A stretch of 64,000 bases of DNA from Anaerolineaceae bacterium oral taxon 439 (lineage in GTDB: Bacteria; Chloroflexota; Anaerolineae; Anaerolineales; Anaerolineaceae). The DNA lies in assembly GCA_001717545.1 (NCBI GenBank), contig CP017039.1:2108001-2172000 (forward strand). The letters are read 5' to 3'. Under the pieces are notes generated by a model. It worked only from the letters and a program-made list of their open reading frames with translations, was not told where the DNA came from and made no database searches. Position numbers and translations under genes: made by a program. Positions 4,870-62,755 of this stretch are shown here, one piece after another. The first letter of the stretch is position 1; every line of letters begins with the position of its first letter.

Positions 4870-5870
4870 TGACCAGCCCCAAAAATTCGTCCACTGAGAA
4901 AGTTAGTCTTTTTCAAATTTACCTCAAAGATGCTGCATACTCGGTTGGGGTGAGATAACCCAGTGTGCTATGCGGACGGGTTTGGTTATAGTCATTTCTC
5001 CAAATTTCAATTATCTCTCTATCCTCTTCCAGATTCCTGAACAGGTTCTGGTTCAAACATTCATCTCTGAATTTTCCATTGAAGCTTTCTATGGTTGCAT
5101 TCTGGATCGGTTTGCCCGGCTCAATAAAAGTCTGCACGATTTGTCTTTCATAATCCCAAATGGTCATGGCCTTGCTGGTAAATTCGGATCCATTGTCACT
5201 GAGCAGTTCTTTTGGATAGCCTCTGGAATAAACCGGCTTTATCCAAAAATCGCCCGACGGCACTTCCAGTGATTGAACCAGCCACTTCAAGAGCCAGACA
5301 CTCTCTGGTGACTTCATCCAATAACGTAAACACGCTGAACTTTCTTCCCAAACTCGTCTTGTCTGAAACGAAGTCCATCGACCAGCGTTCGTTCGCTGCC
5401 ATTTCCTGTGGTCGGGCAGGCATCCCTCGTTTTAGATAAACTTTATTCCGTTTTTTCCTCTCCAAACTCAAGCCTGCCTCATTGTAGAGTCGGTATACCT
5501 TCTTATGGTTCACAATGATGCCCTCCCTCTCGAGCATTACTTGAAGACGGCGATACTCAAAACGTTTCCATTTGGATGCCAGAATAACTAAGCGCTCGCT
5601 GATGCGCTCATTCTCTTTGTTTCGGATGACTTGGTGCCTTTTAGTGCTCCTGGCTATCCCGATTATGAGGCATGCCCGCCGTTCGCTAATGGAGTGCTTT
5701 TGCATGATCTGGTCTGCTTTCTCCCTTTTGGCGGCGGGCTTGATCAGTTTTTTGAGACGATCTCCTTATAGGATCTTGTTCTTCTGTAAATCGTTTTTTC
5801 ATATCGTCGCTCCTGTTTCCATTTTACGCGACTAACATTTCATTTGGTACAGTTTTCGGGGAGCAGGTCA
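4870..5870 (-). mobile_element. IS3-family insertion sequence, copy 1 (defective)
   Basis: A 1001-bp element. Its imperfect terminal inverted repeats begin TGACCTGCTCCCCGAAAA (at 5870, reading minus) and TGACCAGCCCC (at 4870). It is the inverted twin of the copy at 11658-12658; I found only two base differences, both near the orfA end (C/T in the terminal repeat and A/G before orfA). There is no target duplication: the left flank is GTTT and the right flank is CTTA. Both coding regions are damaged, see the transposase entry. Confidence 0.9.
4919..5705 (-). pseudogene. IS3-family transposase (orfB frameshifted; orfA reduced), copy 1
   Basis: The orfB product is split into two overlapping frames. 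Frame one (5705-5196) has RRACLIIGIARST, the helix and YRRLQVMLEREGI region of IS407-like OrfB, and the first catalytic Asp in ERWSMDFVSD. Frame two (5317-4919) carries the second Asp in LLSDNGSEFTS and the Glu in NATIESFNGKFRDE. One base shift lies somewhere between 5317 and 5196. Upstream, orfA (ATG at 5802) is reduced to about 39 codons and keeps only the MKKRFTEEQ start, so most of orfA is deleted. The element is unlikely to make active transposase unless frameshifting restores orfB. Confidence 0.85.
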
Positions 5871-11657: not shown

Positions 11658-12658
11658 TGACCTGTTCCCCGAAAACTGTACCAAATGAAATGTTAGTCGC
11701 GTAAAATGGGAACAGGAGCGACGATATGAAAAAACGATTTACAGAAGAACAAGATCCTATAAGGAGATCGTCTCAAAAAACTGATCAAGCCCGCCGCCAA
11801 AAGGGAGAAAGCAGACCAGATCATGCAAAAGCACTCCATTAGCGAACGGCGGGCATGCCTCATAATCGGGATAGCCAGGAGCACTAAAAGGCACCAAGTC
11901 ATCCGAAACAAAGAGAATGAGCGCATCAGCGAGCGCTTAGTTATTCTGGCATCCAAATGGAAACGTTTTGAGTATCGCCGTCTTCAAGTAATGCTCGAGA
12001 GGGAGGGCATCATTGTGAACCATAAGAAGGTATACCGACTCTACAATGAGGCAGGCTTGAGTTTGGAGAGGAAAAAACGGAATAAAGTTTATCTAAAACG
12101 AGGGATGCCTGCCCGACCACAGGAAATGGCAGCGAACGAACGCTGGTCGATGGACTTCGTTTCAGACAAGACGAGTTTGGGAAGAAAGTTCAGCGTGTTT
12201 ACGTTATTGGATGAAGTCACCAGAGAGTGTCTGGCTCTTGAAGTGGCTGGTTCAATCACTGGAAGTGCCGTCGGGCGATTTTTGGATAAAGCCGGTTTAT
12301 TCCAGAGGCTATCCAAAAGAACTGCTCAGTGACAATGGATCCGAATTTACCAGCAAGGCCATGACCATTTGGGATTATGAAAGACAAATCGTGCAGACTT
12401 TTATTGAGCCGGGCAAACCGATCCAGAATGCAACCATAGAAAGCTTCAATGGAAAATTCAGAGATGAATGTTTGAACCAGAACCTGTTCAGGAATCTGGA
12501 AGAGGATAGAGAGATAATTGAAATTTGGAGAAATGACTATAACCAAACCCGTCCGCATAGCACACTGGGTTATCTCACCCCAACCGAGTATGCAGCATCT
12601 TTGAGGTAAATTTGAAAAAGACTAACTTTCTCAGTGGACGAATTTTTGGGGCTGGTCA
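11658..12658 (+). mobile_element. IS3-family insertion sequence, copy 2 (defective)
   Basis: A 1001-bp element, inverted relative to copy 1. It runs from TGACCTGTTCCCCGAAAA to GGGGCTGGTCA and matches copy 1 base for base apart from two substitutions in the parts I compared; there are no length differences. Flanks are TTC and ATA, so no target duplication is seen. The right end cuts into the relaxase remnant. Confidence 0.9.
11823..12609 (+). pseudogene. IS3-family transposase (orfB frameshifted; orfA reduced), copy 2
   Basis: Same structure as copy 1. The first frame runs 11823-12332 and the second 12211-12609, and neither alone holds all of D, D and E. The protein sequences of both fragments are identical to copy 1. 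In the orfB frame, recognisable coding (KKLIKPAAKREKADQ) extends upstream of the ATG to about 11764. The shortened orfA remnant is 11726-11842. Because both copies carry the same deletion and the same frameshift, the lesions predate the duplication, or the frameshift is tolerated. Confidence 0.85.
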
Positions 12659-49762: not shown

Positions 49763-49790
49763 AAAAAAAGGCGGATCAAACGACCCGCCC
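49763..49790 (-). terminator. Rho-independent terminator after the PfkB-like gene
   Basis: On the minus strand GGCGGGTC, loop GTTT and GATCCGCC form the stem (one G-T pair), followed directly by a run of seven T. It lies 20-45 bases past the stop. Confidence 0.85.
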
Positions 49791-49807
49791 TTACGATAAG
49801 CTGATCC

Positions 49808-51025
49808 TCAATGGCGGCTGATCAGATAAAGCGCCAGACAGCCGCACAGCATCGCCAGAACCAGCAGCGCCGCAGCAGCCAGAATCCAGATCATCGGCTT
49901 ATTATCGGAGTCCCCAGGCCTTTTTTCGAGAAACGACGGGCTCGCTTCGTCCGTCCGGTCGGGAATTGCGTACGAAATTCGCTCAAGATTAGGCGTATAT
50001 TTCGGGATCGACGATTCAGCGCGACTGGCTTCGGGAACCGAAGCGTTTCCGGCGTCCGCTCGCCCGGTTTCTTTCGTCGAAAGACGAACGATATCGAGCG
50101 TTCCGCGTTCAGAAGCGGCGGCGTCAAACGGCCCAGCCGCGCCATAAACAACCGTCGGATCGAAGCGTTCAGGATCGATCGTTCCGTCCCAGGGACCGTG
50201 TTTCTCCTGCTTCATCGTAGTTACGATTCCGGCGATCCGCGCCGCCTCAGCCGGCGAATGGGTCAGCCGCGCGCCGACGTATGACGTGATGCAGGTGTCG
50301 CCGCGGCCGGTTCTTCCGTCCAGCGAGCGCGGGGTAAACGGACCGCGATAGAATTGCCCGTCGGCGTAAACGAGGACGCCGTCCGACTGCGTCAGGATAA
50401 TTTCTTTGGGCCCATATCCGGCGAGAATACGTGCAGCCTCTTCGAGGTCGGTCTGTCCGGTAAGATGCTCCGCTTCAGCGCGGTCGACCTTAAGATACGT
50501 GACATGTTTTAAGCCTTCGACCATGTCGGGCCACGGACGGAAATTCAGGTCTTTTCCTTCGGGAACGCGGACGAATCCCTGAACGTCGAGCGCGATCGGC
50601 GCGCGTTTCGCCAGCTCAATCAGCGTCGGAAGCGTGATTTCGCCCGCGATGATCGGCGTGATCATGATAACTTTCGCCGATAAATCTTCCGGAATCGATT
50701 CGAGCGGAATTTCGCCGGCGAACCCGTTCAGCTTGCAGATACGCCGTTCCATGTCCGCGGACTGATAAATATTGACGCAGCCGGAGGATTCATCCGCAGC
50801 CTGCGCCGTGATATCGATCCCCAGATCGAGGAGCTCGTCTAAATAATGAAAATCCTCTTCAGCCCCGCGCGTGAAGACGCCGACGGATAAGCCCAGGCGG
50901 CGAAGGACGGCGCTTCCATAGTAGACCGCCCCGCCGGGACTTTCGCGCTCGTTATCGTCAACGATCAGGATATCCTTGGCGAAATGCCCAAACATGAGTA
51001 CGTCATAGAATTTTTTCATGATCAC
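49808..51025 (-). CDS. PfkB-family carbohydrate/nucleoside kinase with C-terminal membrane anchor
   Basis: A 405-residue protein. The first ~290 residues are a ribokinase-like kinase: start YDVLMFGHFAKDILIVDDNE, PGGAVYYGSAVLRRLG (substrate Gly-Gly motif), LKVDRAEAEHLTG, ILTQSDGVLVYADGQ, and the catalytic motif DGRTGRGDTCITSYVG. In that motif the usual GAGD is GRGD with Asp kept. About 85 residues of charged, low-complexity linker follow, then a C-terminal TM helix (MIWILAAAALLVLAMLCGCL) and LYLISRH. A membrane-tethered PfkB kinase is unusual. The substrate is unknown. It has its own terminator and stands alone. Confidence 0.82.
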   Translation of the reverse strand: MIMKKFYDVLMFGHFAKDILIVDDNERESPGGAVYYGSAVLRRLGLSVGVFTRGAEEDFHYLDELLDLGIDITAQAADESSGCVNIYQSADMERRICKLNGFAGEIPLESIPEDLSAKVIMITPIIAGEITLPTLIELAKRAPIALDVQGFVRVPEGKDLNFRPWPDMVEGLKHVTYLKVDRAEAEHLTGQTDLEEAARILAGYGPKEIILTQSDGVLVYADGQFYRGPFTPRSLDGRTGRGDTCITSYVGARLTHSPAEAARIAGIVTTMKQEKHGPWDGTIDPERFDPTVVYGAAGPFDAAASERGTLDIVRLSTKETGRADAGNASVPEASRAESSIPKYTPNLERISYAIPDRTDEASPSFLEKRPGDSDNKPMIWILAAAALLVLAMLCGCLALYLISRH

Positions 51026-51068: not shown

Positions 51069-52130
51069 CTATCCGCCGGAGCTTCCGGGATCCGGTTCCG
51101 ACGGTTCCGCTGGCGTTGGTTCCGGCGGATCCGTTGGCATTGGTTCCGACGGTTCCGTTGGCGTTGGTTCCGGCGGATCCGTTGGCATTGGTTCCGGCGT
51201 ATCTATTGGCGTTGGTTCCAGCGTATTCGTTGGCGGCACCGTGGTTGGTGTCGCAGGAACCGGCGTCGGGGTCGCCGCGATCGTCGACGTCGCGGTCGGG
51301 TTCAGGACGCCCATCACGTAACAGTTCAGCCGCTGCGGGAACGACACCTGACAAAACGTATCGCAGCCCTGACCCTGCTGAATTGAACGGGCAGGATCGC
51401 TGCACATATATTCGAAATGCCCCATCGGAGTGCCGGTCCGCGTCACCGTAATCGTCGGCGTCAGCGTCCCGATCTGCGGAATGGTTCCTGAATCGCCCGC
51501 GACGATCGTCAGGCTCAGCGGCAGGATCACCGCGTTCCAGGGATCGATGAAGTTGAAATTCTGCGTATAGGTCCCTTTATCCTTCGGCGCGGTCATGTAG
51601 AACGTCGCCGTCCCGGTCTGCCCGTTACCAACGTTTCCATTAAGCGGCGCGGCGTCCGTCGCCGACATTTTCGTTCCGCCGACATGCACGACCTTATAAT
51701 TCGGCGTCCAGACGGTCGTCCCGGTATTTTTCAGCGTAAACGTCAATTGGAAAGCCTGACTGACACGCGCGGTCTGCTGATTGTTCGGGACCATAGAGAT
51801 CAGCTCAGCCCTGTTCCCCGACCCGCCAGCCGCAGGCGCTACCGCCGCGACCGTCGCCGCAGCGGTAGCGGTCGGAGCCGGGTAACGAAGCTGCGTTGGG
51901 AGAACGCGGACGGTCGCGGTAAACTCCGCCGTGGGAGGAAGCTCGGTAAACGTTTCGGTGGGCGGGATCGAAAGCGCCGTCGACGTTTGATTCAGCATGT
52001 CAACAAACGCGGTTTCGGATTCGCGGACGCTCACGCCGTCCGGCGTATTCGCGCACCCGGCCAGATTCAGAATCGTTACGAACGCGACCAGACAGACAAT
52101 CCATCGGGTTTTATGAGTTGGTATGATCAT
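51069..52130 (-). CDS. Lipoprotein with NBR1-type Ig domain and Pro-rich tandem-repeat tail
   Basis: A 353-residue lipoprotein from ATG 52130. The signal is WIVCLVAFVTILNLAGC with Cys as lipid site. A Thr/Pro spacer follows, then an NBR1 (Next-to-BRCA1) central-domain-like Ig fold (about 100-210) with FTLKNTGTTVWTPNYKVVHV and TFYMTAPKDKGTYTQNFNF. After that comes a small four-Cys segment (YMCSDPARSIQQGQGCDTFC, then LNCY). The tail is six degenerate 8-residue units (PEPTPTEP/PEPMPTDP type). Such domains are frequent in Chloroflexota surface proteins; the binding partner is unknown. It lies 26 bases after a related gene. Confidence 0.75.
   Translation of the reverse strand: MIIPTHKTRWIVCLVAFVTILNLAGCANTPDGVSVRESETAFVDMLNQTSTALSIPPTETFTELPPTAEFTATVRVLPTQLRYPAPTATAAATVAAVAPAAGGSGNRAELISMVPNNQQTARVSQAFQLTFTLKNTGTTVWTPNYKVVHVGGTKMSATDAAPLNGNVGNGQTGTATFYMTAPKDKGTYTQNFNFIDPWNAVILPLSLTIVAGDSGTIPQIGTLTPTITVTRTGTPMGHFEYMCSDPARSIQQGQGCDTFCQVSFPQRLNCYVMGVLNPTATSTIAATPTPVPATPTTVPPTNTLEPTPIDTPEPMPTDPPEPTPTEPSEPMPTDPPEPTPAEPSEPDPGSSGG
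51088..51231. repeat. Six tandem 24-bp repeats inside the lipoprotein gene
   Basis: Units of 24 bp alternate between two types, GGCGTTGGTTCCGGCGGATC-CGTT and GGCATTGGTTCCGACGGTTC-CGTT (plus strand). The outermost copies are diverged. They keep the frame and encode Pro/Glu/Thr 8-mers on the minus strand. Near-identical inner units make length change by slippage likely. Confidence 0.85.
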
Positions 52131-52155
52131 AAGTGAGTCTCTTTCTCCATTCATA

Positions 52156-52974
52156 TTAAGGCAGGATTTGAACGCCGTAGGAATAACAGTTTTTATTCCG
52201 CAGCGACATCGTGTACGCGTTATTACGGCAGTATTCGTCGCAGCCCGATCGCTGAATATTCGAACGGTCGGGATCCGAGCACATCCATTCAAGCGTATTC
52301 GGCGTCGAGGTTGCGCTGCTTCCCGGTTCTGTCGTAATAAACGTCTTGTCTCCAACAATAGCGTTGTAATAGATATAGAAGAAGGCGACGCCGTCGGGAC
52401 GCGAGAACTTCCATTCCGACTTATGCGTCCCGTATTCGTTCGGCGCAGTCGCGGGAATACTCAGCGTCATAACCCCGCCCGGAGCGGTCACCGTATCGAT
52501 CGCGACGCTGCTCTGGTTGGCCAGCTGGATACCGCTGCTATAAGAAAGCGAATATTTCCCAGACCAGGTTGCGGTCCCGATATTTTTCAGCGAAATCGTC
52601 CAGGTAAAATGCTGTCCCGGAAGAAACTGGTTCGGACTGGGCCCGATCGCGACAACTTCGGCTTTATACGGATTCTCAACCGGATCGGACTGGGCTGGCG
52701 GCGCGGCCGCCGCTTCCGTCGGGGGAAGAACGATCGACAGCGTCGGCAAAACCATCGGCGCTTCGGTCGGCGCCAGTGTCTCGGTCGGCAGCGGCGTCAT
52801 CGTCGGTTCCGGCGTCGGAGAGAAAGCCGCGGACGTCTGCGTCAGCTGCGCTGCGATCGTTATGGCGGCTTCGGTATAGATGAGCTGATTGTTCGGCCGA
52901 TGGGTACATCCGCCAATCAGAAACAGCGGCACGACGGCGATCAACAGCATAAATCCGAAAGAATAGCGTCTCAT
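52156..52974 (-). CDS. Lipoprotein with NBR1-type Ig domain and four-Cys C-terminus
   Basis: A 272-residue lipoprotein. The signal is FGFMLLIAVVPLFLIGGC and a Thr/Pro/Glu-rich spacer follows (TPEPTMTPLPTETLAPTEAP). The NBR1-type Ig domain (about 110-215) has FTWTISLKNIGTATWSGKYS and LSIPATAPNEYGTHKSEWKF. The C-terminus WMCSDPDRSNIQRSGCDEYC then NKNCYSYGV repeats the four-Cys pattern of the next gene. GGAGGG precedes the ATG and a TATAAT box lies about 40 bases upstream. It is the first gene of a two-gene unit with 51069-52130. Confidence 0.75.
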   Translation of the reverse strand: MRRYSFGFMLLIAVVPLFLIGGCTHRPNNQLIYTEAAITIAAQLTQTSAAFSPTPEPTMTPLPTETLAPTEAPMVLPTLSIVLPPTEAAAAPPAQSDPVENPYKAEVVAIGPSPNQFLPGQHFTWTISLKNIGTATWSGKYSLSYSSGIQLANQSSVAIDTVTAPGGVMTLSIPATAPNEYGTHKSEWKFSRPDGVAFFYIYYNAIVGDKTFITTEPGSSATSTPNTLEWMCSDPDRSNIQRSGCDEYCRNNAYTMSLRNKNCYSYGVQILP

Positions 52975-53181
52975 AGTCCCTCCGTAAATATTTCCGGTTG
53001 ATTAATTATAGTCTATCATGAGAGGTTAGATTTCTATCTCCTATAAGAGTCAGACGCATTCCGAAACGAAAAAGTTCCGGCGACTGACGGGTATAACGTA
53101 AGATATCGGCCGCCCGCTGCGACCATGCAGCCAGATCAAAACCAACTCCGGAGATCGCGTTCGCAAAACCGCGAACGGTTT

Positions 53182-54465
53182 CTATCTCGGCGGAATATCC
53201 GTCAGACGCGGATTCATGAAAATAATCAAATCGTCCGAAGTCACGCCGCCGTTCGCCTGCACTTCGAAAATAATCGTCAGATCCTGATCATGATAACCGA
53301 AATCGCTCAGATTCGTATTCCATTCCGACGTCAGCCCATCGTTCGTTTCATGCGTCTCCGCGACAAACTGCTCCGTTCCGCCGTTCGGAGCGATCAGGAG
53401 ACGGACAAACGCGTCGCAGTGCGGCGAGTTGGGCGGGCAGGAAACGGCAGAGCGCAGCCACGTTCCGCGCGTCACGCGAACCGGACCGAACGAAACCCGC
53501 GTCGTTCCGTTTTCGGCCGCCGGCGGCGCGATCAGGATCGACGGTCCTCCCGCGTAATTACTCTCCATCGTTGGCGAGGCGTTGTAATAAGCCGCTCCGC
53601 GCCCAGAACTCCGATCGCTGCTGCCGCAGAAGAACAACCCGATATCATCCCGGCAGATCGCCCCGCTCAGATTCTCGTAGAAATTATATTGACTTCCGAC
53701 CTGAAAAACCGACGTCAGGTAAACGTTCCCGGCGCTTCCCGAACCGTAAATCTTCCCTCCCGGATTTTTCAGCCCCCAGGTCGTCGAATACTTGCCCTTG
53801 GTTTCCGGCGCGGTTAACGGAACGGAAATCGGCGTGGATTCGCCGGGACGAAGGAGCTTGTCCTCCGTGAAAAGCGGGAATTCTTTCGCCGCCGCGACCT
53901 CGCTCCCGCTGATATAGATAATTTTGTATTGCCTCGTCATGTCGCAGGTCCCGCTGTTGCGAATGTACCAGGTTTTATCGAAGCGCGTATTCGGAAGCGT
54001 CATCGTTCCGTCCGGGAACGTCACATCCGATAAAAACTCAAACCGATCCACGCACTCCCCGGAAACGGCCGTTGCGCCCGAAATGCCGCCGGACCCAACC
54101 GTTGGGATCGGCTGGCTTGCGGACAGGCCAGCGCTGAGCGAGAGCGTCGGCGTCGCGATCCAATACGGCGCGGTCGGCTCAAGTATCCCGGATATCGCGT
54201 CGTCCCCTGCGGAGGACGGTCCTCCCGCCGAAGACAGATCTGATCGCAGCTGATCCAGCTGTATGATGAACTCTCCAGCGATCTGCGTTAAAAGAATGTC
54301 CCGGTCCGCCGCAGCCTTCGTTTCGAGTTGCGTTTCTTTTTCGAGAACCGCCGCGTCGACCGTTGCCTGCATATCCCGCTCCGTCGGCGGATTCGCAATA
54401 CATCCGCAGACCGCCGCCGAAACCGCCGTCGCCATCAGAACCAACCATCGTGCCTGTCGATTCAT
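53182..54465 (-). CDS. Lipoprotein with NBR1-type Ig domain plus C-terminal beta-rich domain
   Basis: A 427-residue lipoprotein from ATG 54465 (GGAGG 5 bases upstream, ATGA overlap with the gene before). The signal is WLVLMATAVSAAVCGC. A helical stretch with DAAVLEKETQLETKAAADRD follows, then an NBR1-type Ig domain (about 145-245) with TWYIRNSGTCDMTRQYKIIY and SVPLTAPETKGKYSTTWGLK. The last ~170 residues form a separate domain with Cys pairs (CRDDIGLFFC; CPPNSPHC) and the ending SDDLIIFMNPRLTDIPPR. That resembles carbohydrate-binding beta-sandwich modules in general composition only. No enzyme motif is seen. Confidence 0.7.
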   Translation of the reverse strand: MNRQARWLVLMATAVSAAVCGCIANPPTERDMQATVDAAVLEKETQLETKAAADRDILLTQIAGEFIIQLDQLRSDLSSAGGPSSAGDDAISGILEPTAPYWIATPTLSLSAGLSASQPIPTVGSGGISGATAVSGECVDRFEFLSDVTFPDGTMTLPNTRFDKTWYIRNSGTCDMTRQYKIIYISGSEVAAAKEFPLFTEDKLLRPGESTPISVPLTAPETKGKYSTTWGLKNPGGKIYGSGSAGNVYLTSVFQVGSQYNFYENLSGAICRDDIGLFFCGSSDRSSGRGAAYYNASPTMESNYAGGPSILIAPPAAENGTTRVSFGPVRVTRGTWLRSAVSCPPNSPHCDAFVRLLIAPNGGTEQFVAETHETNDGLTSEWNTNLSDFGYHDQDLTIIFEVQANGGVTSDDLIIFMNPRLTDIPPR

Positions 54466-55199
54466 TCCACCTCCACTTTCACCCAGAGCGCCTTGCTGCT
54501 GTCCGTTCCAGTTCCGAAACGCCGCCCGGTGCTGTCTTCTAATTTCCAATATCCCGCGTACTCGCCGCGCTTTTCCGGCGCGGTCATGTACACAGATAAT
54601 TCAATCGTCTCGCCCGGCGGAACGACCGTTCCTGAAGGAAGATTCGTCCGCTCCGCCGCCGCCATACTGTCGCCCATATCAAAAACGATCGCGTATCCCT
54701 CGTTCCATTCGCAAGTCCCCGTATTACGGACGCGCCAGGTTTTCGTAAACGGTTTTCCCAACCTGACAGCGGTAAAATCCGGAACCGTCACGTCCGCGAC
54801 AAACGTCATCTGGTTCTCGCAATCCAACCCGGTATCGATTCCACGGCTGGCCGCCGCCTGCTTCGTGCGGATCGCGTCGGGGACGGACGTCACGTCGATT
54901 TTCATCTCATGCGTCCCCGCGTCATCCCCAGCCGTTGAGAGCGGCGTCTCCGCAGCTCGAACGCCGCCGAGCGACGCGATCGCCGTTTCAAATCGCCGGT
55001 CCAGCCCATACGCCAGCTGCGTCGACATTCGCATCGTCGCGTCGTCGACCAGCCAGTACATCGTTTCCGAAAAATCCGGCGTGGGAGCGATCGCCGGCGC
55101 GCCCGTCAGATCAGAAATGATCCTCGAACAGCCGCTCAACCCAATCGCCAGCGCCAACATGAAAACGACGCGCTGGTAAAAAAACGGTCTGCGTTTCAT
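54462..55199 (-). CDS. Lipoprotein with NBR1-type Ig domain
   Basis: A 245-residue lipoprotein. The signal is FMLALAIGLSGC. A helical region of about 100 residues follows, then an NBR1-type Ig domain (about 135-240) with KTWRVRNTGTCEWNEGYAIV, ELSVYMTAPEKRGEYAGYWK and the end SSKALWVKVEVE. It overlaps the next gene by 4 bases, so the two are made together and may form a surface complex. The C-terminal four-Cys piece found in two other paralogues is missing. Confidence 0.72.
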   Translation of the reverse strand: MKRRPFFYQRVVFMLALAIGLSGCSRIISDLTGAPAIAPTPDFSETMYWLVDDATMRMSTQLAYGLDRRFETAIASLGGVRAAETPLSTAGDDAGTHEMKIDVTSVPDAIRTKQAAASRGIDTGLDCENQMTFVADVTVPDFTAVRLGKPFTKTWRVRNTGTCEWNEGYAIVFDMGDSMAAAERTNLPSGTVVPPGETIELSVYMTAPEKRGEYAGYWKLEDSTGRRFGTGTDSSKALWVKVEVE

Positions 55200-56812: not shown

Positions 56813-59800
56813 TCAGGGAACGCCGAGGAACGTCCGCCCGGAACGATCGGTCCCAAGCCATCGGCAATCCGGCGCAATCGCACCGTCGGCCTCGATTTTC
56901 AGCGCCGAATCCGCCAACGGCAGCGGCGCTTCCAGCCCCCAGCACTCAGCTTCCACCCCGTCCACACGACAGCGCATCGACATGTCCGGCTGATCACAGT
57001 AAACCGTCAGCGATTCCCAATCGGCGGTCGGATCGATCGCGAGCTCAAAACCGTCAACGGTTAACGACGTTTCGCTCATGACGATATCCGCCGTCGGAAG
57101 CGGTTCGTCCAGGAACGCCAGTTCGAACGGGACGAAGCATGCGTCGCCGGCGAACCGAAGCGTCAGCGATACCAGCGACCGAACCGTCTCCGGATCGAGC
57201 TCCGCCGCCGAAAGCCAATCGCTTTCGCACGTAATCCCATCCGTTAACACGGCTCCTCCTTCGCAGGGAAACGATAAGCGCCGTTCGCCCGCGCCCGTCT
57301 CCAGGATCGCTTCAAGAACGAATCCTTCGTCCTGCGCCCCCAGGCAGCTCCCACTCAAGTCAGCATCCGAAAGCAGCAGCGCGTCCCAAATCTGGAATGC
57401 ATCGAAAAAAGTCCGATCCAGAAAAGCGCGTCCGATTTCCGCCGAAACGGGAACCCCATCTTCGGGGGGAAGGTCCGGCAAAATAATTATATACGGCGCA
57501 AGATTGTCCATTCCGTCAATCGTTTTTTCCGCGGACAACGGGTATCGCTGCTGAACGATCGGGGGACTCACGATCGCCACATCCGAATAAAGATCGCCCC
57601 CGGAGAACTCAGCGCGAAGCTGAACCGAATCGCCGGGGACCGCCTCTTCCAGAACGCAGCCCACCCAGCCCGGTTCCGCCTCCGCTTCACAATCGAACGG
57701 GACTGTTTTGTTCGCAATCGCCCGAATCGTTCCGGATAGAAGAGGTTGCCCTTCGCTCGCGATATAAATCCGCCAGCGAAGTGGTTCACCGCTGAATCGA
57801 ACCGATGGAAGCGTTCCGTCCGACGTCAGCGTCACCGGCCTTCGAGCGATTTCGGCGGGAAGATGAAAAACCGCGGAAGACACGTCTTCGCCGTCCGCCG
57901 AAATAAACCGCGCGTCCCGGATCGTCATCCGAATCTCACGCTCGCCGTCCGATAACGCGCGGATACCTGTCCAGCGCACTCCGCAGCTTTTTTCCCACGT
58001 ACCTTCTCCGGCCGCCGTCCACGGCATGCCGTCCAGATCGGAACAGGTCCCCTCTGCGTCAGCCGCCTGAAATCCCGGCGCATGGATCGAAACGATCTCG
58101 CTCAGGCCTTCGCTGATTCCGAGCTGCGGCGGAACTGCGCTGACGCGGAACGTAAAGAGCGCGTCGGATCCAACTGAAATCGGGTCGCCGAGTCCGGTCG
58201 CGCTGATTTCTTGCGAAAGCGCGATCGCTTCCACCGGCGGCAACGCCAGCGCCGTCACCGGCTCATCCCAACCGTCCACTGCAAAATCCGTCGGCTCCAC
58301 GCCTGTTTCGACCGCGGCCCCCTGGTCCCGTCCGGATACGAATTCGGTCTGCGCTTCGAGCTGCGTCTCGGATTCGGCGATCCTGAATCGGAGTGCCCCG
58401 ACCTGCTCGAACCGCAGCTGGCAAAAATCAGACCGGATACCGATCTGCTTATATTCGTTATTCTCGCAGAGATGCCCACCGAACAGCTTTCCGTCCGGCT
58501 GAAGAATTCGGACCGCTCCGCCCTCCTCGGCGCATCCTTCATTCACGATCCAGTCAAAATCCATCATCACCTTGGGCGTACACGATCCGCAAACGCCCTG
58601 ATACGTATCCAGATATTCCCACCCGGTTCCATTTCCAGATTCAAGCGAAAGCGCTCCATCCGCACCGGCCAATTCAAGGTCTGTCGACCGCGCCCGCGAA
58701 AGCAGCTTCGCCCGGACCGTCAGGCGCCGATTCTCAGGGATCCGCGTGTTGGAAGTCTGGTACCCGCGCGTCGTCGGATCGTCGCAGTCGCGCCCGGCCC
58801 AAACGTTGAAATCCGCGCCCGCGGCGTTAAGCCAATAAACCTCGCCCGGCGCCAACGCGTTCCAGCCCGCCGACGGGATAATCGTCACGACATACTTCTT
58901 CAAGCCAACGTCGATCGGAAATTTAGCCTCCGCGGACGCCTGATAATTCGGATCGTCAATCCCACCTGAAAACGTCAGCCGGCTGGGCTCGGTCAGCCCC
59001 ACCTGCTGGCAGTCAATCCGCCATGAACCGTCCGCGATCGCCGCGTGACAGCGGTCGCCATACCAATTCATCCGGTTCGGCTGCATACGGCGCAAATCGT
59101 TCTCAGGAACGCCTTGATCGCGAATCGCCGCCTGCCATGCTGCGTCCGGGCCAGCCGCGCCGGGGACGCCCTCGGAAACGGATATATCGATCGTCTGAAA
59201 CGAAGGCGCCGGGAACGATTCGTCGAGCGGGACCGCGCAGCGGTTCAATCGATCGCGAACCAGAAACAGGTCAAAGCGGAAAGTCTGGTCCCTGTCCGGC
59301 GCGGCGATCCTGGCGTCCCACCGGACCCGATTTCCAGTCCAATCGATAACGCCCTCCGCCGGAACGAGAATCAGGTTCCCAGGCTGAATCGCGTCGACTT
59401 CCGCGCGCGTTCGGATCCGCCCCAGCGCGGAGTCAGACGCGATAAACGTTACGGTCAGCTCGTAGCGTCCGGCGAGTTTCAGCGCCGGAAGTTTCAGCCG
59501 CGCCGTGAGCCGGTTTTCCCCCGTTCCGTCCGGCAGCGCAGAGACATCGGCCGAATCGACGCACTGATCCGGTGCAATCGAGGGACAAAGTCTGGCGCTG
59601 AACGTTCCCCATGGCGCGGAGAAAAGCCCTGACAGATGCTCAACCACGGCGTCGACGTAGAGGCCCCGCCCGATCTGAAAACGTTCGTCTAAAATGAACC
59701 CCTGCGTAACTGTTTCTCCAGTCTGGATCGGACGCATCGGAACCGGCAACGAAAGGTCGACCGTCCCCTGATCGCAGCCGCCGCCATAGCCTTCCGCGAG

Positions 59801-62755
59801 CAGTTCCAACGCCATTTCCATTATGCGCAAACGAATCGGATGGGGAATGGATTCGGACGATTCAAAATCATTGTCGCCGCTGTAAACCGCGATTATTTCG
59901 GTCGTATTCGGGTCGCTGAGCGTCAACGCGCAGCCAGACTGCGCCGGAAGCGTCAGTTCGCAACGCTGATTCCCGGCATGCAAAGAGACCGTACCGGAAA
60001 GCGATTTTCCTCCGGACGGGGCGAGCGGACGAACGGAAACGGAAACGAAAACGGTTTCATTCAGTTCATACGCGTCCTTAGCCGGATCGATCGTCAGGAT
60101 CTGCGTCTGCGTCTGAATTTTCGCCGCCGGATGGACGCTGATTTCACGGTCGGCAGACGACGGCAGGAACCGATCGTCGCCCGGAAAAGCGGCGGTCAGC
60201 CGTCCCTCTCCCACGGCAATCAGCCGCAGAGAACAATGATTCGTCGTATTCGGCTGCACGGTGCAGTCGGAAATACCGTCGCTGACCCGGATCCGACGCA
60301 CGGTTGAATCGTCGAGGCCTGCCGCGTTGGTCAGCGAAATATAAACCTCGACCGTGTCGCCGACGGTGTAAGCGCTCCGATCGGGATACAGCCGGGTAAT
60401 CGCCAGCGATGTCGCGATTTTCGCCGGGCCTTCCTGCGTTGCCGTCGGCATGGATCCCGCGCGCACCGTTATCGGCAGCGGCGCTGAAATTGCGGAAGAA
60501 AACGTCTCGTCCCCGCCGTACGCCGCCGTCAACTCGCCGAGCTGCGCCCGGATCAATCGCAGCGAGCAATGGTTCGTCGTATTGGGAAGAAAGGTGCATT
60601 CAGAAACGCCGTCGCTGACCCTGACCCGGTTCCGGTACGCTCCTTCGCGTCCGGCGTCGTTCGTCAGCGAGACCGTCACGTCGACCGTGTCGCCGACGAA
60701 ATATTCGCTCTTTTCGGGGAAAAGCTGACGAATCGTCAGCGCGGTCCGAATCGGCAGCGCCGTCGCGCTCGGCTCGATCGGCGAGCTGATCAGCGTCATT
60801 TCCTGACGCGCGTTCAGGTATACGTCGTCGCCGCTGTACTGGACGCTGACGGTCACGCTCCCGGGATCGGGCGCGACCAATTCACATGTATTTCTCGGCA
60901 GCGTCGCCAGACAATTCCGCGCCCCGTCGCTGAAAAAAAGCGTTCCCGTCACCTCGGCAGGCTGAACTTCGGCCTGAAGACGGATTTTCTCGCCAGGGGT
61001 AAAAACCGTCTGACCTCGATACGTCGACAGCGTCAACCGAACCGGCTTCCGCTCGAACGGAAGAACGTTAAGATTAAAATCTGCGGATGTCGGATGGTAG
61101 ATCCGATCGCCGCTGTAACGAATCGTGAAATCGCGTTCGCCGTCCGCGCGAAGCAATAGCTCGCAGCTCTCCCGAGGCAGCGTCATCACGCAGAACGAAA
61201 CCCCGTCGCTGATCAGGATCGACCCCGTCGGCGGGGACTGATTAACAGCGACGCCTTGAAACGCGACGCCGACCAGAATCCGGTCGCCGACGGTATAAGC
61301 CGGGCGATCCGGAAAAATCGTCCGAAGACTGAGCGTCGCCGTCCGCATCCCGTCGTCATTCGCCCGGACCCGAACCGTTTCTGTTTTCGCCGCCGTCTCG
61401 CTCCCGTTTTCAACCTGCAGCATCAGCGTCGTAGTTTCCGAAATCGACAGCCTCCGCAACCCCACCGCCGGCAAATCGAACGCCAACAGCCGCTGATCCT
61501 GATCAATAATTCGAATCTGAGTATACGGACCGCTGACGGACCATGCCACGGTCGTTTCACCACTTTGATCGAGCATTGCCGGATTCGCGCTGAAAAAATC
61601 GATTTTCATCTTCGCCGAAGCCGGCGTCCGCTGGGGTGATTGCGTAGACTGAGCCCCGCTCCACGACGAGACACCGACCGTCGTTCCCATGCGAATTGGA
61701 ATCGACGCGTCGATCCGGTTCCCGTCGCTGAACGCGGTCAAATTGAAATTAACCGGCTGCGTCGGGAGATAAGAAAAAGCCCCTGCATGAGGCAGAAGCC
61801 GGTCCGAAAGCGGCGAGATCGTAACTGAATCCGCGTCCCGTACGTCCCATTCGATTAATAATCGCGAACCCGCCGGCAACGCAGCATTTCGATACTCCTG
61901 AACGCGATACGCGTCCTCGATCCTCCGATCCGGAAAGAGCTCGGCGATTTTTTCAGAAGCCGTCCCATCCGGCTTCTGAAGCCAGACGATGAACTTCACA
62001 ATCCGCGGGTCGCGCTTCCGATAATTCAGGCGAAGACGCTCCGATCTCTCGACCGCGCCGTCCTCCGCGGTCAACTCAATTTCCGTATCAGCGGTAAGCC
62101 GAAGCGTTTCTTCGCTCCGGAACCGCGCTGGATCGAGAGGCTGCGTTTCCGAACCGATAATCAGAAGGACGCGCGCGTCCTTCGGGGCGTCAACCTCCCA
62201 TTTTAACAGATAAGTATTCGGCCCCGTCTCCTCGCTGTCGAGTCGAAGCGAAATTGGCCGCCGCGTCGCCGCGACGGTCGCGGTTGCAGGAACCGTCTTC
62301 GAAAACGAAGGGACTGCCGTTGCGGATACCAAAGCTGAAACCGGCGCGTCGTTTGGAGAACGGTGATCCCTGAGAAAAAGCGCCCAAACGCCGCCAAACA
62401 GGAGCAGGATCGCCGGAATCACCGCAATTAAAGAAAAACGCCGCCCGATAGCGGCCTTTTCAGCTTCAAGATAAAGCTGCGTATTGTCGACCTGAAGCGT
62501 ATCGCCGGGACAAAGCGGTATTTCACGATGTGGAGCGAAAGGAAGCGCTTTTCCGGAACGCGTCACGCTGAGTCGATCTGAAAACGGGATCAGGGAGAAT
62601 CGTCCGTCCTGATTTTTTATCTGGAAATGAAGCGGAAGAATATCCGGTCCTGCTAACGGAACGTCGCACCCCACATGGGTTCCGAATGAAGTCAGGGGCT
62701 GCGTCAGGCGGATTTCTTTCTCCCACCCATTCTCCAAACGAATACGGAGATTCAT
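56813..62755 (-). CDS. Giant FHA-TM-Ig-repeat surface protein (1980 residues)
   Basis: A very large single-pass membrane protein. Residues 1-100 resemble an FHA domain (LTSFGTHVGCDVPLAGPDIL, then PLHFQIKNQDGRFSL, PLCPGDTLQVD). The Arg and Ser that bind phosphothreonine are replaced. One TM helix (LIAVIPAILLLFGGVWALFL, about 109-128) follows, with no signal peptide, so the N-terminus is probably cytoplasmic and the rest outside. The exterior has five Ig-like repeats (about 480-1010) of Big_3/Ig_5 type with YSGDD motifs and a Cys pair in each. About 950 residues of further beta-rich, Cys-containing sequence follow. The likely role is adhesion, surface scaffold or envelope sensing. A good promoter lies upstream. 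Confidence 0.75.
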   Translation of the reverse strand: MNLRIRLENGWEKEIRLTQPLTSFGTHVGCDVPLAGPDILPLHFQIKNQDGRFSLIPFSDRLSVTRSGKALPFAPHREIPLCPGDTLQVDNTQLYLEAEKAAIGRRFSLIAVIPAILLLFGGVWALFLRDHRSPNDAPVSALVSATAVPSFSKTVPATATVAATRRPISLRLDSEETGPNTYLLKWEVDAPKDARVLLIIGSETQPLDPARFRSEETLRLTADTEIELTAEDGAVERSERLRLNYRKRDPRIVKFIVWLQKPDGTASEKIAELFPDRRIEDAYRVQEYRNAALPAGSRLLIEWDVRDADSVTISPLSDRLLPHAGAFSYLPTQPVNFNLTAFSDGNRIDASIPIRMGTTVGVSSWSGAQSTQSPQRTPASAKMKIDFFSANPAMLDQSGETTVAWSVSGPYTQIRIIDQDQRLLAFDLPAVGLRRLSISETTTLMLQVENGSETAAKTETVRVRANDDGMRTATLSLRTIFPDRPAYTVGDRILVGVAFQGVAVNQSPPTGSILISDGVSFCVMTLPRESCELLLRADGERDFTIRYSGDRIYHPTSADFNLNVLPFERKPVRLTLSTYRGQTVFTPGEKIRLQAEVQPAEVTGTLFFSDGARNCLATLPRNTCELVAPDPGSVTVSVQYSGDDVYLNARQEMTLISSPIEPSATALPIRTALTIRQLFPEKSEYFVGDTVDVTVSLTNDAGREGAYRNRVRVSDGVSECTFLPNTTNHCSLRLIRAQLGELTAAYGGDETFSSAISAPLPITVRAGSMPTATQEGPAKIATSLAITRLYPDRSAYTVGDTVEVYISLTNAAGLDDSTVRRIRVSDGISDCTVQPNTTNHCSLRLIAVGEGRLTAAFPGDDRFLPSSADREISVHPAAKIQTQTQILTIDPAKDAYELNETVFVSVSVRPLAPSGGKSLSGTVSLHAGNQRCELTLPAQSGCALTLSDPNTTEIIAVYSGDNDFESSESIPHPIRLRIMEMALELLAEGYGGGCDQGTVDLSLPVPMRPIQTGETVTQGFILDERFQIGRGLYVDAVVEHLSGLFSAPWGTFSARLCPSIAPDQCVDSADVSALPDGTGENRLTARLKLPALKLAGRYELTVTFIASDSALGRIRTRAEVDAIQPGNLILVPAEGVIDWTGNRVRWDARIAAPDRDQTFRFDLFLVRDRLNRCAVPLDESFPAPSFQTIDISVSEGVPGAAGPDAAWQAAIRDQGVPENDLRRMQPNRMNWYGDRCHAAIADGSWRIDCQQVGLTEPSRLTFSGGIDDPNYQASAEAKFPIDVGLKKYVVTIIPSAGWNALAPGEVYWLNAAGADFNVWAGRDCDDPTTRGYQTSNTRIPENRRLTVRAKLLSRARSTDLELAGADGALSLESGNGTGWEYLDTYQGVCGSCTPKVMMDFDWIVNEGCAEEGGAVRILQPDGKLFGGHLCENNEYKQIGIRSDFCQLRFEQVGALRFRIAESETQLEAQTEFVSGRDQGAAVETGVEPTDFAVDGWDEPVTALALPPVEAIALSQEISATGLGDPISVGSDALFTFRVSAVPPQLGISEGLSEIVSIHAPGFQAADAEGTCSDLDGMPWTAAGEGTWEKSCGVRWTGIRALSDGEREIRMTIRDARFISADGEDVSSAVFHLPAEIARRPVTLTSDGTLPSVRFSGEPLRWRIYIASEGQPLLSGTIRAIANKTVPFDCEAEAEPGWVGCVLEEAVPGDSVQLRAEFSGGDLYSDVAIVSPPIVQQRYPLSAEKTIDGMDNLAPYIIILPDLPPEDGVPVSAEIGRAFLDRTFFDAFQIWDALLLSDADLSGSCLGAQDEGFVLEAILETGAGERRLSFPCEGGAVLTDGITCESDWLSAAELDPETVRSLVSLTLRFAGDACFVPFELAFLDEPLPTADIVMSETSLTVDGFELAIDPTADWESLTVYCDQPDMSMRCRVDGVEAECWGLEAPLPLADSALKIEADGAIAPDCRWLGTDRSGRTFLGVP

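Follow-up and report, generated by a model that had tools for sequence, protein, structure and literature searches.

A membrane-tailed PfkB-family kinase with a GRGD motif in Anaerolineaceae bacterium oral taxon 439: a candidate PPi-using inositol kinase fused to part of a neighbouring membrane protein

The stretch of DNA analysed here (hereafter the window) comprises 64,000 nucleotides of contig CP017039.1 of Anaerolineaceae bacterium oral taxon 439. On its minus strand, an open reading frame (ORF) at 49808–51025 encodes 405 aa when started at GTG. The starts of relatives align with aa 3, so the ATG at that position (51019), which gives a 403-aa product, is the likelier and probably the true start. 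The following features were recognised:

50141..51019, minus strand: PfkB/ribokinase-fold kinase domain, approximately aa 3–295 (Pfam, match to TM0415, model plus Foldseek, and the ends of orthologues at 292–294 aa)
50297..50317, minus strand: GRTGRGD, aa 237–243 (alignment to TM0415; invariant in the relatives' alignment)
49892..50140, minus strand: linker, aa 296–378, disordered in the model (composition, AlphaFold)
49988..50011, minus strand: SIPKYTPN, aa 339–346 (aligns with IPxYxP of the relatives' separate proteins)
49820..49891, minus strand: predicted C-terminal transmembrane (TM) helix, aa 379–402 (hydropathy, model helix at 378–404, TM helices of relatives)
49767..49792, minus strand: terminator-like hairpin with a T-run, just 3′ of the kinase ORF (11-pair stem)

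An earlier note on this DNA had described a PfkB kinase with GRGD, a charged linker and a C-terminal TM helix, and Pfam, hydropathy and AlphaFold all agree with that description. The PfkB match scores 35.4 bits (cut-off 25.8). D, E, K and R make up 31% of linker residues 296–376, and the Kyte–Doolittle 19-residue maximum is 2.77 at aa 381, compared with at most 1.57 for spans starting before aa 365. The AlphaFold model, built on a 31-row alignment, has a confident kinase core (pLDDT at least 90 at 261 residues), pLDDT below 50 at aa 317–377 and a tail helix with 10-residue pLDDT means of 86, 92 and 82 from aa 381. Hydropathy and model thus place one hydrophobic helix, at the C-terminus, as in a tail anchor; we infer membrane insertion of this kind, with the kinase on the cytoplasmic side. 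Terminator-like sites are not in excess across the region as a whole (two found, 2.5 expected).

Several neighbouring ORFs of the window are recorded here for orientation. Upstream of the kinase (51069–54549, minus strand) lie three consecutive ORFs with an N_BRCA1_IG domain, lipoprotein-like by eye, and similar ORFs also precede the kinase in those relatives whose loci were read. A 1980-aa ORF (56813–62755, minus strand) lies near these lipoprotein-like ORFs. Two 169-aa ORFs with identical first 60 residues (5196–5705, minus strand, and 11823–12332, plus strand) stand in opposite orientation around transporter-like genes; they resemble insertion-sequence genes.

We compared the locus with those of related genomes. 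The genus is called Flexilinea here, as F. flocculi TC1 (L042) is among its genomes, some records being named otherwise. A kinase orthologue with at least 66% identity is present in 11 of the 14 genus genomes, that of taxon 439 included, and was not found in G002, G003 and G011, two of which are only about 80% complete. In all ten other orthologues the kinase stops at 292–294 aa and is followed, 9–53 nt past the stop, by a separate ORF of 158–418 aa (in the same frame in 9/10), itself preceded by what looks by eye like a ribosome-site-like stretch. The C-terminal parts of these separate proteins contain an IPxYxP motif (9/10; lacking in L011), a charged spacer and a TM helix, and in the window tail SIPKYTPN, a spacer and the helix follow one another in that order. 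The separate proteins (e.g. L042 6910–7488 of F. flocculi) share these elements and the post-kinase position with the window tail, but stand alone and carry an N-terminal zinc-ribbon-like region (three proteins) or apolipoprotein-like charged coil (seven; Pfam matches, most below cut-off) that the window lacks. In the downstream membrane proteins of L010, L012 and L015–L019, which are 196 to 418 aa long, charged repeats match the Pfam apolipoprotein family with scores that reach 87.4 bits, below its cut-off of 90.

Missing from the window are the kinase stop, the gap, the partner's start and its N-terminal domain, the last not seen in any frame across the junction; the remainder is joined in frame, and the open frame continues to the partner's natural end. 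The tail, as judged from this comparison, is a derived fusion, most simply by in-frame deletion. A profile of the ten relatives' downstream proteins scored 19.3 bits on the window tail and at best 13.2 bits on 500 shuffles in which linker and helix were shuffled apart; the linker alone scored 10.3 bits. The tail exceeds chance hydrophobicity; the score margin is modest, and adjacency to the kinase carries most weight.

The fusion is present in one genome only (1/14 of the genus). The same fusion, which the earlier note had proposed to look for in relatives, occurs in none of the 79 assessable loci among the best 80 of 94 relatives (the one left aside, L104, is cut short by the end of its contig); the 80 named loci include the same ten genus genomes and are not an independent second sample. 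The long tblastn spans of L050, L071, L086 and L098 each resolved into a pair of kinase genes lying close to each other, and matches to residues 346 and 349 in L076 and L102 lie in frames that end 49 and 60 residues past the motif; neither set was accepted as fusions. A class-wide profile search (298 genomes) gave no match to the window tail or its genome at E 0.001; matches in 35 of the genomes were not counted as homologues, the best ones covering mainly the last part of the profile with the TM helix.

The earlier note had named absence of linker and helix from orthologues as counting against its reading. Taken literally this is what is seen, since as part of the same chain they are absent from all ten orthologues; as a similar anchor encoded by the adjacent gene they are present in all ten. 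The membrane link may therefore be older than the fusion. It is possible, if somewhat doubtful, that the fusion is neutral, with anchor and kinase functionally unlinked and the tail of no use. Its restriction to one genus genome would fit this, as would the in-frame position of the neighbour in 9/10 relatives, which makes fusion by deletion easy; however, adjacency is kept in 10/10 relatives despite very different N-terminal halves of the separate proteins, and the IPxYxP-like linker motif and the helix survive in the fused protein. This 'Rosetta stone'-like fusion to a genus-conserved neighbour hints that the kinase and an uncharacterised membrane protein work together.

The nearest solved relative of the kinase by sequence is TM0415 of Thermotoga maritima (aa 9–278, E 5.9e-39; 90 of 265 aligned residues identical). 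TM0415 structures (5ysq_B, 5ysp_A and 1vk4) are also the best Foldseek matches of the window model, with TM-scores of up to 0.90 of the target and 32–34% identity to 5ysq_B and 5ysp_A. With this ribokinase fold, the Pfam match and a GXGD motif present as GRGD with its catalytic Asp, the protein belongs to the PfkB/ribokinase family. An NCBIfam scan for the substrate gave only a weak match, to 2-dehydro-3-deoxygluconokinase (20.4 bits; cut-off 400).

According to Nagata et al. 2018 (PMC5931981), TM0415 is a myo-inositol 1-kinase that uses pyrophosphate (PPi), and neither ATP nor ADP. PPi is recognised by K171, R229 and R232; F221, R232 (the Arg of GRGD) and M266 block the ATP pocket; and 3–11% of activity remains when each of the three basic residues is changed to Ala. 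The authors suggest that RXGRGD marks the PPi-dependent members, and they show that homologues from Levilinea saccharolytica (Chloroflexi) and from Acanthamoeba use PPi as well. TM0415 is not named in the passages of PMC10248530 consulted. TM0415 (PDB 1vk4, 5ysp and 5ysq) and the window kinase have in common the fold, RXGRGD, K171, F221 and the Mg and catalytic residues. They differ in that TM0415 is described as a soluble monomer (PMC5931981) whereas the window kinase has a predicted membrane tail, and in that M266, I76, S89 and L116 of TM0415 correspond to Q, C, C and I. The myo-inositol 3-kinase of Thermococcus kodakarensis (3w4s) is a weaker match that shares the ribokinase fold and an inositol acceptor; according to PMC5931981 it is ATP-dependent and, unlike the window kinase, is without RXGRGD.

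Two lines of evidence support an inositol-type acceptor: (i) the inositol contacts and (ii) co-occurrence with iolG. The residues that contact inositol in TM0415 (D11, N78, Q141 and R145) are the same in the window kinase and in 10/10 genus orthologues, which also share the I76C, S89C and L116I substitutions. Homologue No. 49 of L. saccharolytica, of the same phylum, is described as PPi-dependent and has RXGRGD like the window kinase, whereas its acceptor site has L78, L89 and S116 where the window kinase has N78, C89 and I116 (PMC5931981). The Levilinea type (L78, L89, S116) also occurs in L022–L024, and PDB 7e4l is, from its title, an N78L/S89L mutant.

Five loci (L039–L042 and L107) have the order kinase, separate membrane-protein gene, SUI1, EttA and iolG (with other ORFs between in some), followed by iolB and iolD where the locus extends far enough; these genes were named by similarity to scanned proteins of the taxon 439 genome, and iolG also by genome search. 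In five of the ten orthologue genomes (G004, G005, G006, G012 and G013) the contig that carries the kinase has no iolG. In taxon 439, SUI1–EttA lies ∼5 kb from an iolG–iolB–iolD–iolE cluster (iolG, iolD and iolE above the NCBIfam cut-offs, iolB below) and the kinase 160 kb from iolG. Of 147 family genomes, 41 have the kinase (E below 1e-40), and 36 of these also have iolG (threshold E 1e-90), as against 11 of the 106 that lack the kinase; this comparison makes no correction for kinship, and its kinase set mixes window-type and Levilinea-like subgroups. By genus the tally is weaker (9/12 versus 8/28, p 0.013). The same contig carries iolG for 22 of the 52 kinase matches, within 30 kb in 19 of these 22.

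The acceptor could instead be another polyol or a keto-sugar, which we regard as a real if lesser possibility. The myo-inositol Km of TM0415 is high, at 12 mM, and other acceptors are considered in the same study (PMC5931981); the differences at I76, S89 and L116 point the same way. Against this, the four myo-inositol contacts are conserved, and the kinase gene co-occurs with iolG.

For the phosphate donor, we aligned to TM0415 the window kinase, its ten orthologues from the genus, six other relatives and eight of the 14 paralogues matched in the taxon 439 genome. Window R238 and R241 correspond to R229 and R232, and D243 to the catalytic D234. K171, F221, R229, R232 and D234 (TM0415 numbering), as well as D173 and E176 of the Mg site, are kept in the window and in 10/10 genus orthologues, and both motif glycines are intact. 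In all eight aligned paralogues the motif reads GAGD or GVGD, and the three basic PPi residues are missing. Across the best 80 of 94 relatives, R[ST]GRGD occurs in 80/80 named loci. Neither of the two scan patterns for these loci included this motif, and on this conservation the GRGD of the window kinase is not random decay. One pattern held the K171 stretch, so conservation of K171 was partly selected for and that of the Arg positions was not. Of these 80 loci, 78 gave a total of 86 frame hits, which may count one ORF more than once; in these hits K171, R229, R232 and D234 are invariant, and position 221 is F in 83.

The window kinase has four of the five residues of the PPi signature of Nagata et al. 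2018. The exception is M266, which is Gln in the window (aa 273) and in 10/10 genus orthologues. Among the same 86 frame hits, drawn from the best 80 of 94 relatives, 63 have Q at position 266, 12 have M, 10 have L and one has a gap. We know of no assayed enzyme with Gln at this position. Because of this Gln we do not file the window kinase as a strict member of the PPi-dependent group; that it works like that group remains the best reading, with PPi rather than ATP probably the donor. It is unlikely, in our estimate, that ATP or another compound is the donor and that RXGRGD with Gln 266 marks a separate donor class. The Gln itself speaks for such a class, and two of four assayed homologues with the full signature were inactive on the acceptors tried (PMC5931981); on the other hand, the same source places the GRGD Arg in the space that the nucleotide occupies in ATP-dependent members, and the three basic residues and F221 are all kept. 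PPi-dependent kinases are few in number, and the large Gln-266 subgroup could show whether the five-residue signature, as published, is stricter than necessary.

Two other readings fare worse. It is very unlikely that a sequencing or assembly artefact deleted a stop codon: the fusion is known from one assembly, but a single-base error would not suffice, since the partner's N-terminal half is absent in every frame and a longer deletion would be needed, and the frame is open as far as the partner's natural end. We give almost no credence to the earlier suggestion of a pseudoenzyme sensor, prompted by GRGD in place of GAGD, since GRGD is also the motif of TM0415, a kinase of published activity (PMC5931981), the catalytic Asp, motif glycines, Mg-site Asp/Glu, inositol contacts and PPi residues are intact, and differences from four orthologues are mostly silent (pN 0.16–0.21 versus pS 0.77–0.83, pS being saturated). 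The companion idea, that the Arg alters phosphate handling, is supported by analogy: the corresponding Arg of TM0415 binds PPi and blocks the pocket for ATP (PMC5931981).

Taken together, we favour, with reasonable confidence, an inositol kinase that is catalytically competent, probably uses PPi and is held at the membrane in cis by fusion with an adjacent membrane protein. At the sequence level, the case is strong for the kinase domain, four of five signature residues, the acceptor residues, the helix and the separate gene in relatives; PPi as donor, inositol as acceptor, tail anchoring and the pairing of kinase and partner are inferred. By analogy with TM0415, K179, R238 and R241 would hold the distal phosphate of PPi and D243 would be the catalytic Asp, and the kinase would phosphorylate myo-inositol or a close inositol-pathway compound. 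An in-frame deletion would have joined it to the C-terminal part of the neighbouring membrane protein, and the flexible linker would keep it mobile next to the membrane. A literature search, covering its sources in part, found no membrane-tethered PPi-dependent kinase. This reading makes the site of inositol phosphorylation in these bacteria testable.

A wider and distinctly speculative proposal is that in this genus a PPi-powered inositol kinase acts at the membrane, paired with a tail-anchored protein dedicated to it (in trans for most species, in cis here), and supplies inositol phosphate to a membrane enzyme that couples it to lipid. If true, inositol lipids would be reached here by a route driven by PPi. 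INO1, which usually makes inositol phosphate, was found in 0/14 genus and 0/147 family genomes; in a control, the search gave matches in 5/14 known genomes, with three of them over cut-off. The taxon 439 genome has a single CDP-alcohol phosphotransferase match, which scores 126.5 bits as phosphatidylinositol-phosphate synthase (PIPS; cut-off 170) and 22.4 as PgsA; its seven PDB matches comprise PIPS, PIPS fusions, AF2299 and a DIPP-synthase-type enzyme. The kinase could feed a membrane lipid enzyme because this lone transferase resembles PIPS. A transferase frame was recovered by pattern in 12/18 loci, and six proteins were scanned (that of taxon 439 and five others). Two points argue against the lipid route: the transferase score is below the curated cut-off, and G002, G003 and G011 have a similar transferase without an orthologous kinase having been found. 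The sole transferase of taxon 439 might instead make phosphatidylglycerol phosphate. H+-PPase is present in 13/14 genus genomes and PFK-family matches in 14/14, which is compatible with a PPi economy and not specific to it.

Two RXGRGD kinase genes lie close together in L050, L071, L086 and L098, and also in L051 and L111; in several of these loci one gene of the pair has RTGRGD and the other RSGRGD.
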